A stretch of 45,727 nucleotides of DNA. It comes from Betaproteobacteria bacterium (GTDB lineage: Bacteria > Pseudomonadota > Gammaproteobacteria > Burkholderiales > Casimicrobiaceae). The stretch lies in assembly GCA_005881895.1 (NCBI GenBank), contig VBCG01000056.1, forward strand, positions 1 through 45,727, given 5' to 3'. The translations under genes and the position numbers were made by a program. Of this stretch, positions 28,681-36,494 are shown one piece after another. Position 1 is the stretch's first letter. Every line of letters begins with the position of its first letter. The notes under the pieces are model-generated. The model was given only the letters and a program-made list of their open reading frames with translations. It did no database searches and was not told where the DNA came from.

Positions 28681-29433
28681 ATGCTTGCAATTATTGGCGG
28701 CACCGGGCTCACGCGCCTGTCGACACTGGCGGTTGCGCATCGGGAAGTGGTGCGCACGCCGTACGGAGAGCCGTCGGCTGCACTCGTCTTCGGACAGCTC
28801 AACGCTCAGGACGCCGTATTCCTGGCTCGCCACGGGCATGGTCACACGATCCCGCCTCATCGTGTCAATTACCGCGCCAATCTGTGGGCGTTGAAGGACC
28901 GCGGCGCGACGGCTGTCGTTGCGGTCGCGTCGGTAGGGGCAATCTGCCGCTGTGCGCCCGGAGACCTCGTGGTGCCGCACCAGTTGATCGACTATACGTC
29001 GGGGCGCGAGCACACGTTTTTCGACGGCGGCGATCAACAGGTGGTCCACGTCGACTTTACCCAGCCTTATTCGACCGAGTTCCGCGCTCGTCTTCTCGCT
29101 GCGGCAAAGGAGGCAAACCTTGCAGTGGTCGACGGCGGAGTCTATGGCGCGGTGTGCGGCCCGCGACTGGAGACCGCCGCCGAGATCGATCGGATGGAGC
29201 GCGACGGGGCGACGCTGGTCGGCATGACCGGAATGCCCGAGGCGACGTTGGCGCGCGAGCTGGGCTTACCCTACGCGGCGATCTGCGTCGTCGTCAATCA
29301 CGCCGCCGGACGAGGCGACAGCGCCGAGGAAATCTCGATGGAAAGGATCGCGAAGGTGCTTGAGACCGCCATGGATCGCGTCCATATCCTTCTGAAGCAC
29401 GTTGCTCCACTCGCCAAAGGACATCAGAGATGA
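28681..29433 (+). CDS. S-methyl-5'-thioinosine phosphorylase
   Basis: A 250-residue MTAP/PNP-family nucleoside phosphorylase. Family blocks are IIGGTGL at the start, [20 protein letters not shown], and [20 protein letters not shown]. The later [20 protein letters not shown] motif is that of MTA/MTI phosphorylases; the PEA form agrees with the methylthioinosine group known from Pseudomonas aeruginosa (PA3004). It would split methylthioinosine into hypoxanthine and methylthioribose-1-phosphate. Its substrate could come from the deaminase at 43765-45081. The ribosome-binding site is weak. It overlaps def by 4 bases. Confidence 0.87.
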
Positions 29434-29966
29434 TTCGAGAAGTGCTGCGCATGGGCGATCCGCGTCTGCTCGAACGCTCGCAGGAAGTTGCGCGGTTCAA
29501 CACGCCGGCGATCGACGCGCTGCTCGCCGACATGCGCGATACGATGAGAAAGTACGAGGGCGCGGGTCTCGCGGCGCCGCAGATTGGCGTTCCGCTGCGC
29601 GTCGTGATATTCGGTGTCGAGCACAATCCGCGCTATCCCGATGCGGAGCCTGTTCCTTATACCGAGATCATCAATCCGGTGCTGGTTCCGCTCTCGGACG
29701 ACATGGAAGAAGGGTGGGAGGGTTGTTTGTCGGTGCCGGGGCTTCGCGGCGTCGTGCCGCGCTACTCGCGGATCGGTTACACGGGTTACGACCCGAAAGG
29801 CGGCAGGATCGAACGCGAAGCGAGCGGCTTCCACGCGCGCGTCGTTCAGCACGAATGCGATCACCTGGACGGCATCCTCTATCCGATGCGGGTACGAGAC
29901 TTCGCGCGTTTCGGTTACACCGACGTACTGTTCCCCGACATTGCCGAAGCGCCGGCTGACGATTAG
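29430..29966 (+). CDS. def: peptide deformylase
   Basis: A 178-residue peptide deformylase that removes the formyl group from nascent proteins. All three family motifs are intact: [10 protein letters not shown] (residues 44-53), [11 protein letters not shown] with the metal-binding Cys99, and HECDHLDG with His141, Glu142 and His145. The start overlaps the preceding gene by ATGA. The coupling with a nucleoside phosphorylase rather than with fmt is unusual; this may be a second deformylase copy in the genome, which cannot be checked here. Length is normal for the family. Confidence 0.96.
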
Positions 29967-30018
29967 CCGCTTGCCGCCGAGCTTCGATCGCACCCGTTCG
30001 CGGGCTTGTCACCCGCCT

Positions 30019-31182
30019 GTGGCAAGGGCGTGGCTGCTGGCGTTCGTCGCGGGTCTCGCCTGCGATCCTCCGTTTGCCGCGATGCTTCTCGTCGGACCCG
30101 GCGCGCCGATCGCACGAATTGCCGATGCCGCACGTCTCGCGCACGACGGCGACACGGTCGAGATTCTTCCCGGGGAATACCGCGGCGACGTCGCGGTCTG
30201 GACACAGAAGCGCCTGACGATTCGCGGCATCGGGAGCGGTCCAACGCTGATCGCAGACAACCAAAGCGCCGAGGGGAAAGCAATTTGGGTGTTTCGCGAA
30301 GGGGATTTTCTCGTCGAGAACATTGCGTTCAGCGGCGCGCGAGTCCCCGACCTGAACGGCGCGGGGATACGCTTCGAGCGTGGGCGGATGCGTGTCGTCC
30401 GATGCCGATTCACCGACAACGAGAACGGCATCCTGACGAGCAACGATGGCGATAGCGAGCTCGTGATCGAAGACAGCGAGTTTTCAGCAGCGCCGACCGA
30501 TCGCGGGCCACTGAAACACTTGCTGTACGTCGGCCGAATTGCGCGATTCGCACTCTCGGGCAGCCGGTTTCATCACGGGTACCAGGGACATCTTGTCAAA
30601 TCGCGTGCGAAAGAGAACGTCGTCCGCTACAACCTGCTCTACGACGGCGCCGGTGGATCCGCGGCTTATGAGCTCGAGTTCCCCAACGGTGGATTGGCGT
30701 ACGTCATCGGCAACGTGATCGGGCAAAGCCGCGAGACCTCGAACCCCGTCGTCATCGCGTATGGGGCGGAAGGCGCGGCGTGGCCTGACAGTGCGCTGTA
30801 CCTTTCGCATAACACGCTGATTAGCGAGCGCATGATCGGCGCGTGGTTTTTGCGTATCTGGTCGGAGAATCTTCCGGCCACCCTTTCCGTCATCGCGGTC
30901 AACAATCTGACGGTCGGTCTAGGCGTCTTCAGCATCGGCGCGCCCGGTGAGTTCGCCGGCAATTTTCCGACCCTGTCGTTTGCGTTGAGTGATCCCGCGA
31001 CGCTCGATTTCACGCTGGGCTCGAACTCATTGATCCTCGGAACGGGCGTCGAACCTCCGATCGTGCGCGGCCGCTCCCTCGCTCCCGACGCTGAGTTCCA
31101 TTTGCCCGTAGGAACGCGTCCGCTTGCGCGGCCAAAGACCTGGACGCCCGGCGCGTTTCAGACGACCGATCCGCAGCGCTGA
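30019..31182 (+). CDS. secreted right-handed beta-helix protein
   Basis: About 387 residues. The start is uncertain: GTG 30019 gives MARAWLLAFVAGLACDPPFA, a signal-peptide-like start; TTG 29971 just after def is the alternative. The body shows the periodic pattern of parallel beta-helix proteins: GDTVEILPGEYRGDV, LTIRGIGSGPTLIADNQ, IAFSGARVPDLNGAGIRF, RFTDNENGILTSNDGDSEL, YNLLYDGAGGSAAYELEF, LYLSHNTLISE. Such folds often bind or cut polysaccharides, but no catalytic set is recognised. It follows def by about 50 bases. Its TGA (31180-31182) directly abuts the orphan glnD tail at 31183. Confidence 0.75.
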   Translation: MARAWLLAFVAGLACDPPFAAMLLVGPGAPIARIADAARLAHDGDTVEILPGEYRGDVAVWTQKRLTIRGIGSGPTLIADNQSAEGKAIWVFREGDFLVENIAFSGARVPDLNGAGIRFERGRMRVVRCRFTDNENGILTSNDGDSELVIEDSEFSAAPTDRGPLKHLLYVGRIARFALSGSRFHHGYQGHLVKSRAKENVVRYNLLYDGAGGSAAYELEFPNGGLAYVIGNVIGQSRETSNPVVIAYGAEGAAWPDSALYLSHNTLISERMIGAWFLRIWSENLPATLSVIAVNNLTVGLGVFSIGAPGEFAGNFPTLSFALSDPATLDFTLGSNSLILGTGVEPPIVRGRSLAPDAEFHLPVGTRPLARPKTWTPGAFQTTDPQR

Positions 31183-31218
31183 TCACAACCGCAGCTGTTC
31201 GTACAAAGCCGTTTCGAG
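31183..31218 (-). pseudogene. orphan 3'-terminal fragment of glnD
   Basis: On the minus strand the sequence reads LETALYEQLRL followed by TGA (31185-31183). The intact glnD at 33873-36494 ends LETALYDQLKI. Over the 26 bases 31193-31218 and 33883-33908 the two copies match at 24 positions, in the same orientation; the two mismatches fall at third codon positions. Upstream of the LETAL codons the frame stays open for a few residues (VPYARDLRRR) but does not resemble the intact gene, then runs into the cupin gene. This is the tail of a glnD gene cut off from the rest of it. Confidence 0.7.
31193..31218. repeat. left copy of a 26-bp direct repeat flanking the cupin/regulator segment
   Basis: Partner of 33883-33908. 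24 of 26 bases are identical and in direct orientation. The copies are 2,690 bp apart and enclose only the cupin and ToxR-like genes. This is the layout expected at the two ends of a segment integrated at a gene 3' end, although no integrase is present. Confidence 0.65.
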
Positions 31219-31255
31219 TCGGCGCCGCAAATCACGCGCGTAGGGGACCGAGATG

Positions 31256-31744
31256 CTAGAAACCGCAGTACGGGTTCGGCGCAGCGAGCTCACCTCGGAA
31301 CCCCGATCCCACGGGGGCGAGGATCACGGAGACGTCCAGCGCGGGCTGCTCGGTCCGGTTCACGCCAATATGTCCATGACCATCGTCGACGTAGCCCTGG
31401 CCCACGGTTACGACCTTCGGTGTGCAGGTCGGGTCATCGTACTCGTAGAAAGTTACCGTGCCCTGCAGGACGGTGATCAATACGGGACCGGGATGCGTGT
31501 GCCAGCCGGTCGAAGCGCGAGGCAAGTAGTCGTGCTGGCGCACGACGATGTCGAACGAGGACTTGGCTTTCGCTTCGAAATCGACCAGAGAGTCGTGCTG
31601 GGTCTTCACATTGAACGGTTCGTATGTTCCGCGGCTGATGACCTTGGGCGTAACGCCGACGGGTGGTGACGCCAAGGCGGCCATTGCACAGGCTGCAACC
31701 ACAAAAACGCACGACACACCGAGCAGTTTCTTCATTGCATCCAT
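31256..31744 (-). CDS. secreted cupin-domain protein
   Basis: A 162-residue exported protein. AGGGAG lies about 6 bases before ATG 31744. The signal peptide is MKKLLGVSCVFVVAACAMAA with likely cleavage near ALA-SPP. The single cupin barrel shows the metal-binding HTHPGPVLITVLQGTVTFYE (two His) and, in the second motif, GYVDDGHGHIGVNRTEQPA (His). Single cupins of this kind may be dioxygenase- or isomerase-like or simply bind ligands; no substrate is evident. It is divergent from the ToxR-like regulator and is its most likely target. Both lie between the duplicated glnD tails. Confidence 0.8.
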   Translation of the reverse strand: MDAMKKLLGVSCVFVVAACAMAALASPPVGVTPKVISRGTYEPFNVKTQHDSLVDFEAKAKSSFDIVVRQHDYLPRASTGWHTHPGPVLITVLQGTVTFYEYDDPTCTPKVVTVGQGYVDDGHGHIGVNRTEQPALDVSVILAPVGSGFRGELAAPNPYCGF

Positions 31745-31763
31745 GATTCGCTCCCTTATAAAT

Positions 31764-31779
31764 GCGCCGCACCCGGCGC
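31764..31779. promoter_or_regulatory. inverted repeat in the cupin / regulator divergent region
   Basis: GCGCCG-CACC-CGGCGC is a 6-bp inverted repeat 20 bases upstream of the cupin start, next to a TTTATAA stretch that may be its -10. It could be an operator for the neighbouring winged-helix regulator or a leader hairpin. The divergent region is 209 bp long and is more AT-rich than the genes beside it. Confidence 0.3.
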
Positions 31780-31953
31780 GTCATGACAAAATGCGTCGGC
31801 AAGGTCAACATCTCGCCTTTCTCATTTGACGTCGATGCAGGACACGCTACGTACTTCGCTTTGTCGATCGCAGCCGCCCGACGGTATGTCACCGTTTGGT
31901 TTGGGTAACGAAATACGCGCTATGAAACCTCGAAACTTCCGCTAAATCGCGTC

Positions 31954-33876
31954 ATGGACACACGCGTATCGAGGACAAGCGCGCTTCAGCGCGTCTACTC
32001 GTTCGGCGATTTCACGCTGGACCTCGAACGCGGCGCGCTGCAAAAGTGCGGAGCCGACGTCCGACTGCGGCCGAAGTCTTTCGAGATGCTCTGCTACCTC
32101 GTCGAGAACCACGGCCGCCTGGTATCGAAAGACGAGCTTCTGAATGCGGTCTGGGGCCGCACAGTGGTCACGGAAGGGTCGATTACGCAATGCTTGATCG
32201 ACATTCGTCGCATACTCGGAGACAAATCGCAGTCGCTCATTAGGACCGTTCCCCGCCGTGGATACATCTTCGACGCGCCCGTGTCCGAGTCTGTCGAGAC
32301 GGCGTCACCGGTAGCGGCCGATACCGTTTCGGTTGCGCGAAGCGCGAGTGATCGTGCGCAGGCGATCAAAAATCGACTCACGTGGATCTTCGCTGGGTGC
32401 CTGCTGCTGGTTTTCGCAGGGGCTTGGGTTGCCGTAGAGACCTTCGGGATGAAAACGCGGCACGACGTCGGAGCGACACGCCGTTCGATCGCCGTGCTGC
32501 CCTTCGTGGATTTGAGCCCCGAGCAAGATCAGGGGCACTTAGCCGACGGCGTCGCCGAAGAAATTCATGATCTGCTAGCCCACGTCCGTACGCTTCGAGT
32601 GATAGCCCGAACATCGTCGTTCTCGTTCAAGGGAGCCAATACCGATCTCAGGACTATCGCCGAAAAGCTCAACGTCGCTTATGTTCTCGAGGGCACTGTA
32701 CGGAAGTCGGCCGATCGAATCCGCATCACGGCGAAGGTCATCGATGCGGTGACCGGTTCTCCGGCGTGGTCGCAGACGTACGACCGAAAGCTTGAAGACG
32801 CCTTCGCAGTTCAGACGGAGATCGCGACCGCTGTCGCGCAAGCATTGAACGTCACGCTGGCCAATGTGACCGAGCGCGATATTCGAGCGTCGGTGAATTC
32901 GGAGGCGTTCTCGGTATATCTGCAGGGTCGCTTTTTCTACAATCGCCGTGCATCCGGCGACGTCGAAAGAGCCGTGAAGCTTTACGAGGAAGCGCTTCGG
33001 CTCGATCCGCGCCTTGCGCGCGCTTGGGTAGGCCTCGCAGCCGCCTATACGGCGCAAGCCGGCGACGGCACCATTTCGAATGACGTCGGCCTCGCAAAGC
33101 GTCGTCTTGCCATTGGAGAGGCGTTGATGCTGGACCACCACCTTGCCGAGGCGCATATACGCGCGGCCGAGCTTGCATGGGATACCGGCGACATTGCAGC
33201 GGTCGCGAAACATCACCGCGAAGCCGTTGCGTCCGAACCGGACAATCCAATTGTTCTTGCATTCTCTTCGAACGAGGCCGCGTGGAACGATCGACTTGAC
33301 GATGCGATCGTGCTCGCCCGCCGCGTCGTAACGCTCGACCCGCTCTCGGCTGTGATGCATGGGCATTTGGCGAGTCTCCTGCTTGCAGTCGGCAGATTTG
33401 AAGATGCGAAAACCGAATTCATCAAGCAGTTGCAGCTTAGTTCGATCGCTACGCCGGACACGGACCCTGCCATTGGTTTCATTCTTATTCTCGAACACAA
33501 ATTCGACGAGGCTTTGGCGTTGATCGAACACTGGCCGGCGGGCGACGACAAGGACCAGGCTGTCGCAATGATTGGCCGAGCGGTCGCTCGTGAAGCGGAC
33601 GCCGGTGCAGCGATGCAGAGATTGAATTCATCGAAGCAACTCGGCAGCGCGGTCCGGTTAGCCGAAGTCCACGCTTTCCGAGGCGATTCGGACCAGGCGT
33701 TCAACGCGCTACAAACCGCACGCAACAAGATAACAAGCGATAGCTGGTCGTCGCCCGACTGGATCTGGATGTGGCAGCTGCGGTTTTCGCCGTTTCTGCG
33801 GCCGCTGCATACCGACCCGCGTTGGCCGCAACTGCGTCCGCCCAAGCCGCCCCTCAGGACTGTCGCTGCACGTTAG
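31954..33876 (+). CDS. ToxR/CadC-like membrane regulator with TolB-like and TPR domains
   Basis: A 640-residue protein. Residues 16-108 form an OmpR-type winged helix (FGDFTLDLERGALQ, RPKSFEMLCYLVENHG, VTEGSITQCLIDIRRILGD, LIRTVPRRGYIF). About residues 142-162 is a single membrane span (LTWIFAGCLLLVFAGAWVAV). Residues 177-300 resemble the TolB/FlgO-like domain (SIAVLPFVDLSPEQDQGHLA, ARTSSFSFKG, YVLEGTVRKS), and the remainder is a tetratricopeptide-like helical repeat. The layout is a DNA-binding head in the cytoplasm and a sensory part in the periplasm, as in CadC and ToxR. No response-regulator receiver is present. It overlaps the end of glnD by 4 bases (convergent) and faces away from the cupin gene. 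No proven ligand. Confidence 0.88.
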   Translation: MDTRVSRTSALQRVYSFGDFTLDLERGALQKCGADVRLRPKSFEMLCYLVENHGRLVSKDELLNAVWGRTVVTEGSITQCLIDIRRILGDKSQSLIRTVPRRGYIFDAPVSESVETASPVAADTVSVARSASDRAQAIKNRLTWIFAGCLLLVFAGAWVAVETFGMKTRHDVGATRRSIAVLPFVDLSPEQDQGHLADGVAEEIHDLLAHVRTLRVIARTSSFSFKGANTDLRTIAEKLNVAYVLEGTVRKSADRIRITAKVIDAVTGSPAWSQTYDRKLEDAFAVQTEIATAVAQALNVTLANVTERDIRASVNSEAFSVYLQGRFFYNRRASGDVERAVKLYEEALRLDPRLARAWVGLAAAYTAQAGDGTISNDVGLAKRRLAIGEALMLDHHLAEAHIRAAELAWDTGDIAAVAKHHREAVASEPDNPIVLAFSSNEAAWNDRLDDAIVLARRVVTLDPLSAVMHGHLASLLLAVGRFEDAKTEFIKQLQLSSIATPDTDPAIGFILILEHKFDEALALIEHWPAGDDKDQAVAMIGRAVAREADAGAAMQRLNSSKQLGSAVRLAEVHAFRGDSDQAFNALQTARNKITSDSWSSPDWIWMWQLRFSPFLRPLHTDPRWPQLRPPKPPLRTVAAR

Positions 33877-36494
33877 ATCTTGAGCTGATCGTACAACGCC
33901 GTTTCGAGCCGCAGCAATGCGTGCTCATCATACAGACGCGCGCCGTCGATCAAGAAGACATCCTCTGCGCGCTCGCCGAGCGTATTGATCTTCGCACTCG
34001 CAACGTTCACGTTCGCTTTCGCGAGCACGTAGGCAATTCGCGCGAGCAGCCCGGGCCGGTCTCCTGCAACAACTTCGAGGATATAGTGCGTTCCCTTGTC
34101 GTCGGGAAAAATCTGGATCTGCGGCGTCAGCGGGAAGTGCTTCAGCTGACGCGGAATGCGGCCCTCCACCGGCGCTTCGAGCGGCGGCTGCTCGGCCAAA
34201 CGTCGCGTCAATTCGAATTCGACGTACTGAATCGCCTCTCGATACGATGCGAGCGGGTTCGCGGGGTCGTGCACGGCGAACGTATCGAGCGCATAGCCAT
34301 GCCGCGTCGTATGGACCTTCGCTTCGAGAATCGACAGGCCGGCACGCCCGAAGAATCCGCAGACGCGGGCGAACAATTCCTTTTGGTCCGGTAGATAGAT
34401 GAGCACCTGCAGACCGGCGCCGTCGCGCGCAAGCCGCGCCTTGACGACCGGCTCCTTCCGCTCGACACGCCAGTACAAGTGACGGGCGTGCCACGCGATC
34501 TCATCGGCGGTGTGGCGCTGGAAATACGGCGTGTCCAGATGACGCCACAGCGCGCGCTCGGTTGCTTCGGGCACTGCATAGAGCCGCAGAAGACGCTTTG
34601 CCTCGGCCTGACGCGCCTCGATGCTGTCCTGAATCGTTTGCCACGCGCTTCCGCCGGCAAGCTCGGCCCGCGTCGCGTGAAAAAGATCTTCCAAGAGCTT
34701 GGCTTTCCAGGCGTTCCACACCCGCGGACTGGTGCCGCGGATGTCCGCCACCGTCAACAGGTACAAGGCAACCAGCCGCCGTTCATTCCCGATTTTCCGC
34801 GCAAATGCGGCGACCACGTCGGGATCGGCGATGTCCTGCTTTTGCGCAGTCGACGACATCGTCAGGTGATGCAGGACGAGCCAGGCGACGAGGTTCGCGT
34901 CCTCCTTGGGGATGGCGTGCTGGACACAAAAACGCAGCGCGTCGCGCGCGCCCTGGGTCGAATGATCACCGCCGCGTCCCTTCGCGATGTCATGAAACAG
35001 ACCGGCGATATAGAGCACTTCCTTGTGCTCGAAATCGGCGATCAGTCGCGAGCACAGCGGATACTCGTGCGCATGCTGCGCCTCGGTGAAGCGGCGCAGG
35101 TTGCGGATCACCATCAGGATGTGCTCGTCCACCGTGTAGACGTGGAAGAGGTCGTGTTGCATCTGTCCAACGATCCTGCCGAACGCCGGCAGGTACTCGC
35201 CCAGAACGCCAAACAGGTTCATGCGGCGGAGCTCGTGCGTCAGACCGCGTGGCTCGCGGAACATCTGCAGAAAGCGCGCGCGATTCGCGGGATCGCGCCG
35301 AAATGCGACGTCGATCCGATGCCGTTCGCGCCAGAGCGCCCGCAACGTACGCGCGGACATTCCGGTGAGCTCGGCGTGCCGTTGTAGCGTCAGGAACGCA
35401 TCGAGCATCGCCGCGGGCCGGCGGGCGAACAAATCATCGTGGCGCACATCGAGGAGCTCATCGACTCGCTGGAATTCGGCATCGATCGGTACCGGTTCGG
35501 TCGCCGCCGGATAGAGCCGCGCGTGAATGTTCTGCAGCAGAATCGTGTTCACCTGCCGCACGAGCTTGGCCGCACGGTAATAGTGTTGCATCAGTTGTTC
35601 GCTCGCTCTTCGTGTCGGCGTATCGGTCAGCATGACCTCGCGCGCCAATGCCGCTTGCTGGTCGAACACGAGCCGGTCCTCGCGCCGCGCAGCGAGATAA
35701 TGCAAACGCACGCGCAAGCCGCCAATGAAGCGCTCTTCTCTTGCGACGGCACGCGCCTCGGATGCCGTCATCAAGCCATGCCGCGCCAGATCGCGCCATG
35801 TCCTGCCCATGCCGGCGGCGCGTGCGATCCATAGCACCGACTGCAGGTCGCGCAATCCTCCCGGACTCTCCTTGACGTTGGGCTCGAGGTTGTATGCGGC
35901 GTCGTGATACTTCAAGTGGCGCTGCTGCTGCTCGAGCATTTTCGCAGCGAAGAACGCGCGCACGTCGAGCGCGTCGTCGAACATCCGGGAAAAGTGGCCG
36001 TACAGGCGGCGCGAGCCCGCGATATGACGATTCTCGAGGAGGCTCGTGCGTATCGTGACGTCGGCCTGCATTTCCGTTTTGCATTGGGCGAGCGTCCGGA
36101 CCGCGTGCGCAATCTCGAGTCCGATATCCCACAACGCTGCGAAGAAGCGCTCGACCGCCTGCTTGCCATCGTCGTCCGGATCCGCGGGCAGCAAGATCAC
36201 GACGTCGATATCGGAATGTGGAAACAGCTGGCCGCGACCGAATCCGCCAACGGCTACAAGCGAATACACAGACGGCATCGCCGCTTCCGACCAGACCGCA
36301 CGCAACACCCGATCGACGAGCCGCGCGTGCTCGCGCAACAGACGGCTGGTGTCGGGATCAGCGAAGAACGCTTGCTGCAAAGCGTGCCGCTGGCGCGCCA
36401 GTTCAGCGCGCCAGAATGCAATACGCGGGCGGGCGACAAGCGGCGTCTCGCATACCGCCGTATCGGCGGACGCGGTCTCGGGAACGTGGCTCAT
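33873..36494 (-). CDS. glnD: [protein-PII] uridylyltransferase / uridylyl-removing enzyme
   Basis: An 873-residue GlnD, the main nitrogen sensor that uridylylates PII when glutamine is low and removes the group when it is high. The nucleotidyltransferase motif GGFGRGQLFPHSDID is at residues 83-97 with the metal Asp pair. The HD phosphohydrolase motif is YIAGLFHDIAKGRGGDHS. Two ACT domains close the protein (LIYLPDQKELFARVCGFFGR and LEVVAGDRPGLLARIAYVLA). Length is normal. The last residues LETALYDQLKI are duplicated as an orphan fragment 2.7 kb to the left. It follows map with an 11-base gap. The sigma-54 operon in this window would be downstream of the same nitrogen signal, if NtrC-controlled (inference). 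Confidence 0.97.
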   Translation of the reverse strand: MSHVPETASADTAVCETPLVARPRIAFWRAELARQRHALQQAFFADPDTSRLLREHARLVDRVLRAVWSEAAMPSVYSLVAVGGFGRGQLFPHSDIDVVILLPADPDDDGKQAVERFFAALWDIGLEIAHAVRTLAQCKTEMQADVTIRTSLLENRHIAGSRRLYGHFSRMFDDALDVRAFFAAKMLEQQQRHLKYHDAAYNLEPNVKESPGGLRDLQSVLWIARAAGMGRTWRDLARHGLMTASEARAVAREERFIGGLRVRLHYLAARREDRLVFDQQAALAREVMLTDTPTRRASEQLMQHYYRAAKLVRQVNTILLQNIHARLYPAATEPVPIDAEFQRVDELLDVRHDDLFARRPAAMLDAFLTLQRHAELTGMSARTLRALWRERHRIDVAFRRDPANRARFLQMFREPRGLTHELRRMNLFGVLGEYLPAFGRIVGQMQHDLFHVYTVDEHILMVIRNLRRFTEAQHAHEYPLCSRLIADFEHKEVLYIAGLFHDIAKGRGGDHSTQGARDALRFCVQHAIPKEDANLVAWLVLHHLTMSSTAQKQDIADPDVVAAFARKIGNERRLVALYLLTVADIRGTSPRVWNAWKAKLLEDLFHATRAELAGGSAWQTIQDSIEARQAEAKRLLRLYAVPEATERALWRHLDTPYFQRHTADEIAWHARHLYWRVERKEPVVKARLARDGAGLQVLIYLPDQKELFARVCGFFGRAGLSILEAKVHTTRHGYALDTFAVHDPANPLASYREAIQYVEFELTRRLAEQPPLEAPVEGRIPRQLKHFPLTPQIQIFPDDKGTHYILEVVAGDRPGLLARIAYVLAKANVNVASAKINTLGERAEDVFLIDGARLYDEHALLRLETALYDQLKI
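33883..33908. repeat. right copy of the 26-bp direct repeat (inside glnD)
   Basis: Partner of 31193-31218; it lies within the last codons of intact glnD. See the orphan fragment entry for the comparison. Confidence 0.65.

Follow-up and report, generated by a model that had tools for sequence, protein, structure and literature searches.

The 3′ end of glnD occurs twice in the genome segment considered here, once at the end of the intact gene and once beyond two unrelated genes, and the question that this locus raises is by what kind of event the second copy came to lie there. The window (the whole stretch of DNA that was analysed, 45,727 nucleotides) is part of contig C218 (54,471 bp), which belongs to a draft genome of 4.29 Mb in 260 contigs. 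The usual gene order in most of the relatives examined is pilU, mtip and def, followed by glnD on the opposite strand; the names def, pilU and mtip, unlike that of glnD, are those that we take the genes to bear from reading their proteins by eye. In the window, def is the left fixed neighbour of a variable spot, which holds the features listed in Table 1.

Table 1. Features between def and glnD and at its borders (positions are those of the window)
Feature	Position	Strand	Remarks
def (peptide deformylase)	29430..29966	+	Order with glnD kept in relatives; name read from the protein
Beta-helix gene	29959..31182	+	Exact start not fixed; Pfam Beta_helix 25.1 bits, cut-off 25.9
Orphan glnD 3′ end (the displaced tail in the preferred reading), RLETALYEQLRL-stop	31183..31218	-	Tail-profile 37.1 bits; 28/36 to live tail
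Presumed junction zone, orphan tail to cupin stop	31219..31255		glnD similarity past the tail not significant
Cupin-domain protein, hydrophobic N-terminus (secreted, by eye)	31256..31744	-	Pfam Cupin_2
Winged-helix (Trans_reg_C)/membrane segment (by eye)/TPR regulator	31954..33876	+	Pfam PF00486, PF14559
Live glnD 3′ end, RLETALYDQLKI-stop	33873..33908	-	Tail-profile 40.1 bits
glnD, intact	33873..36494	-	Pfam GlnD_UR_UTase, HD, ACT

Judged by eye from the list of open reading frames, the segment between the two glnD ends contains the cupin and the regulator only. The Pfam match of the cupin (Cupin_2, E 8e-06, 25.9 bits) lies below the curated cut-off of 27.2. The regulator gene is divergent from the cupin gene, a layout from which we judge that the cupin gene is probably under the control of the regulator. 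The packing of genes at both borders that had been described in an earlier note on this DNA agrees with the coordinates: the stop of the orphan fragment (31183-31185) directly adjoins that of the beta-helix gene (31180-31182), and the stop of glnD (33873-33875) is overlapped by that of the regulator gene (33874-33876).

The two glnD ends

The earlier note had reported that 24 of 26 bases are alike between 31193-31218 and 33883-33908 in direct orientation, with both mismatches at wobble positions, and both statements were confirmed. The repeat can be extended to 29 nt (26/29 alike, spacing 2690), and it heads the 16 families of direct repeats listed for 29900-34200 (as family D1). Over 36 nt the two tails show 8 differences, and the longest exact stretch common to both is 11 nt. 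The glnD similarity of the left copy spans about 36-38 nt. A longer remnant (tail extension, two in-frame gaps) did not rise above shuffled sequences; upstream of the 36 nt, the shuffle fractions were 0.10-0.997 against 26 tails, namely the live one and those of 25 relatives.

A profile built from the glnD tails of 23 relatives gave the left copy 37.1 bits, close to the score of the live tail, and up to 33 kb into the window the next-best site reached 8.7 bits. The best site other than a glnD end in the stretches of 28 relatives, some of which are short because their contigs end there, scored 14.3 bits. When the last 36 nt of each relative's own glnD were compared with its downstream stretch, the best second match in 35 stretches was 24/36; a few of these glnD genes have a longer C-terminus, so that a different part of the gene was compared there. 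The left copy is thus truly an orphaned 3′ end of glnD, and its match to glnD exceeds chance, a point on which the earlier proposal depended.

The two tails have 27 of 33 nt in common, the differences at the three codon positions numbering 1, 1 and 4, and 47 of the 253 pairs of relatives' tails reach the same value, so the tails of the window differ as those of species do. Between relatives of like identity, the differences by codon position amount to 121, 51 and 246. The core of the orphan, RLETALYEQLR (11 residues), is the exact consensus of the tails of 23 relatives, whereas the core of the live tail, RLETALYDQLK, departs from it. Since it is the orphan that carries the consensus, it looks like a former working glnD tail rather than a degraded duplicate of the live tail. 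On the codon pattern and the consensus core, the simplest reading is that the two tails come from different lineages, and the earlier suggestion of different but related glnD genes gains support from both. What speaks against this reading is that the orphan aligns slightly better to the live tail (score 57) than to the tails of 25 relatives (50.5 at most), so that either the donor must have been close or the tails are of recent common ancestry.

Relatives and the order of events

The search for glnD covered 61 genomes, the window's own included, and 58 of them matched. We compared 35 stretches downstream of the relatives' glnD, in 27 of which we could place def as well as the stop of glnD. The def-glnD gap in these 27 loci ranges from -82 to 6061 bp and exceeds 400 bp in 10 of them. 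The open reading frames in the gaps of 15 loci, inspected by eye, are differing genes or doubtful frames only; they include an oxygenase-like gene (G005), a substrate-binding-like pair (G002) and a PEP-CTERM-like gene (G012), and two genomes of one genus (G030 and G024) have one gene common to both gaps.

One relative, G021, has the layout that the earlier note had named as a sign of insertion: its beta-helix gene stands before glnD, with 10 nt between the stops, and neither the cupin gene nor the regulator gene is present. Together with the orphan tail, this locus supports the claim that the pair was inserted at glnD, and an insertion with exchange of the tail is the form of it that is supported. 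G021 belongs to another clade of the same genus as the window. The sister of the window is G020, whose GlnD is 83% identical to that of the window and in which 3 nt separate def from glnD; the two pair on the trees of the left flank and of glnD, with support of 100/100 and 100/99, and thus there is no sign of the flanks having moved. Each tree had 24 rows, the window and the 23 of 60 relatives having both flanks taken; in the glnD tree three of the rows were less than half full, and the positions of G009 and G003 differed between the two trees. In G021, def and the first part of the beta-helix gene are on a second contig, which overlaps the first by 401 bp (C401 and C223; L085 and L020); the overlap agrees at only 97.5%, suggesting that the G021 draft contains more than one strain.

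We consider, with a probability of about one half, that the locus is the scar of a horizontal exchange by homology-facilitated illegitimate recombination, reportedly the model put forward to explain how 3′ ends were displaced at T6SS and Rhs loci. The starting layout would have been def, beta-helix gene and glnD, as in G021. The incoming DNA of a related bacterium would have brought a 3′ end of glnD and, behind it, the regulator and the cupin genes; it would have recombined homologously in or near the glnD end, and its far end would have joined illegitimately inside the old tail. The live glnD would thereby have gained a new tail, and what is left of the old one, its final ~12 codons, would now lie as a relic 2.7 kb downstream. 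The direction of this event, its donor and its recombination route are what we infer from the scar.

The starting layout has a cost, because the beta-helix gene is absent from the sister G020, so that losses or transfer are needed. The gene was matched in 2 of 64 genomes of the family, the window's own included, beside glnD in both, and these two genomes are not sisters on the trees. Such a distribution speaks for the reverse polarity, a reading that we regard as possible but rather doubtful: the order cupin-regulator-glnD would have existed first, and the beta-helix gene would have come later with a scrap of the glnD tail of a G021-like donor, which makes the left tail the foreign one. The beta-helix proteins of the window and G021 are 65-67% identical, though, against 78-81% for the glnD, def, mtip and pilU proteins of the same two genomes, and this lower identity makes a recent transfer of the gene from the G021 line unlikely. 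Across mtip and def, moreover, 10 of 14 bins of 90 nt are nearer to G020, 3 are nearer to G021 and 1 is tied, and the last def bin favours G020. The tails decide neither way: the orphan shares 26/33 nt with G021 (tied with G014) and the live tail 27/33 (tied with G015), and by this measure neither tail singles out G021 over the other tail. A search for a foreign tract in def showed no clear switch of affinity.

The cupin and regulator genes have few kin, which speaks for the preferred reading. With an E limit of 1e-12, the cupin was found in its own genome only, among 64 genomes of the family and 398 of the phylum. Kin of the regulator within the genus show 36-41% identity over the C-terminal two thirds (E limit 1e-60), and at E 1e-90 none of 398 other genomes of the order matched, among the three candidates scored per genome listed. 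The regulator found at best 48% identity over a short segment in 29 public loci, and 33% over the longest match. No cupin occurred near regulator kin within the flanks of 41 other regulator loci (E 1), and none of the genomes and public loci searched has the regulator and cupin genes beside glnD as a donor would. A plasmid origin was considered and rejected: the cupin had one match (a Rhodococcus plasmid, 42.5% over 44% of the length), and the regulator matched 685 plasmid records, every one at <60% identity. The GC3 of the regulator gene is 0.68 and that of eight other genes 0.74-0.84, a difference too small to decide.

The route into glnD

The right border of the segment lies inside glnD, and on the left no significant resemblance to glnD goes past the orphan tail. 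Homologous recombination with its anchor in glnD and an illegitimate joint at the far side would account for three things together: the exchange of the live tail, the displacement of the old one and a junction that lacks homology. The genome contains ComEC and DprA family matches, which make DNA uptake possible but do not in themselves prove competence. A search for foreign sequence in the last part of glnD detected none, since the last 15-40 codons showed no significant change of affinity (15 relatives) and, against G020, 17-33% of the windows were as low; the relatives are too distant for such a tract to be visible.

According to the extracts of PMC3240628, homology-facilitated illegitimate recombination takes place in bacteria that are competent and during conjugation of E. 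coli, and the process proposed here would resemble it in combining homologous recombination at one end with illegitimate joining at the other; there it was shown experimentally, whereas here it is read from a scar. Another parallel is found at the T6SS loci of V. cholerae, where displaced effector 3′ ends with immunity genes have been attributed to the same recombination model and where, as far as the extracts of that paper go, such events are rare in comparison with plain homologous exchange and no integrase is known to its authors (PMC5361080). As in that system, a module with one homologous anchor would have replaced a gene end, shifting the old 3′ end downstream as an orphan. In contrast to the effector genes or domains changed there, the replaced part here would be ~12 codons in the gene of a housekeeping enzyme that is conserved, and the genes brought in have no relation to glnD. 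Among the papers listed in literature searches with glnD as a term, no such insertion came up, a thin negative; the single match of one search concerned, by its title, Streptomyces regulators.

Integrative elements at gene 3′ ends are flanked by a direct repeat, and att cores can be as short as 11 nt. An improbable reading of the locus is that a small element, now without an integrase, entered at an att site where glnD ends and supplied a replacement tail. The occurrence of the glnD end on either border, in direct orientation, and the wholeness of glnD would agree with it, and the exact common stretch of 11 nt between the tails could be a short att core. The earlier note had preferred an element aimed at gene 3′ ends while observing that no integrase is present. 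The observation stands for tyrosine recombinases: there are 9 matches to the tyrosine-recombinase family PF00589 in the genome, 8 of them above the cut-off, and none is on contig C218. The preference is not supported, given this lack on the contig and the absence of a second glnD tail from the 28 relatives' stretches scanned with the profile (some of them short), an absence seen although 10 of the 27 loci with both genes located have gaps of over 400 bp. The 8 differences in 36 bases, furthermore, are what the coding ends of two species would show. Homologous exchange, which the earlier note had listed as the alternative, thus fits better than a site-specific element.

Known cases at gene 3′ ends, in the extracts of PMC8409611, are SGI1 at trmE and islands at dusA; like these, the present segment would place foreign genes at a gene end and leave the host gene whole, but unlike them it lies on a contig that lacks a tyrosine-recombinase match, and the scan of relatives showed no second case. 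No inverted repeat of at least 14 nt pairs the two borders. An inverted pair at 31336-31352/34043-34059 (88%) was set aside, being within the cupin and glnD genes and away from the borders, and a weak direct repeat at 29984-30013/31864-31893 (77% over 30 nt), in the start of the beta-helix region and the cupin-regulator spacer, was chance-like and resembled the lesser pairs of that list.

A within-genome duplication of the glnD end, with genes inserted between the copies and drift thereafter, is very improbable. The orphan is indeed nearer to the live tail than to the tail of any relative, as a duplication would have it. Drift from the live tail would hardly yield the consensus core that the orphan has, and it would be odd if the orphan, as an unconstrained copy, had stayed the same and only the live tail had changed. 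In 20,000 simulations of six random changes to the live tail, which assume that all changes fell in the orphan, none gave the consensus peptide and 0.4% reached the similarity score of the orphan. An assembly artefact or chimeric contig, for which the fragmentation of the draft might speak, is barely credible, since the longest exact stretch common to the tails is probably too short for a misjoin and the flanks on both sides pair with G020.

The def-glnD junction in the family

Under the preferred reading of exchange anchored in glnD, the event is an example of an already known kind of gene exchange and a clear, if fairly ordinary, trace of it. The scar, which is well preserved, would show a small cassette entering beside a housekeeping gene that stays unbroken, with no mobile element apparently involved. 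The locus further suggests that def-glnD is a spot of gene turnover in the family, and it leaves the general picture unchanged.

We put forward, as a tentative extension, that the convergent def-glnD junction may be a small exchange hotspot in the family, in which the conserved glnD end would offer the homology by which short cassettes of related bacteria are captured with no integrase involved. The orphan tail might then be the rare exchange that left a visible scar, a suggestion that we hold equally loosely; the rarity of such events in V. cholerae would fit one scar among many variable gaps.

In the relatives as well, the convergent gap between def and glnD is a spot of gene turnover. The glnD frame of G017 (L040, C148) overruns its usual end and overlaps the def gene of the opposite strand by about 80 nt. 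In G007 (L050, C1), a different winged-helix regulator of 810 residues is encoded on the other strand within a few hundred bases of glnD, and it shares 39% identity with the regulator of the window over 101 residues of the DNA-binding part.
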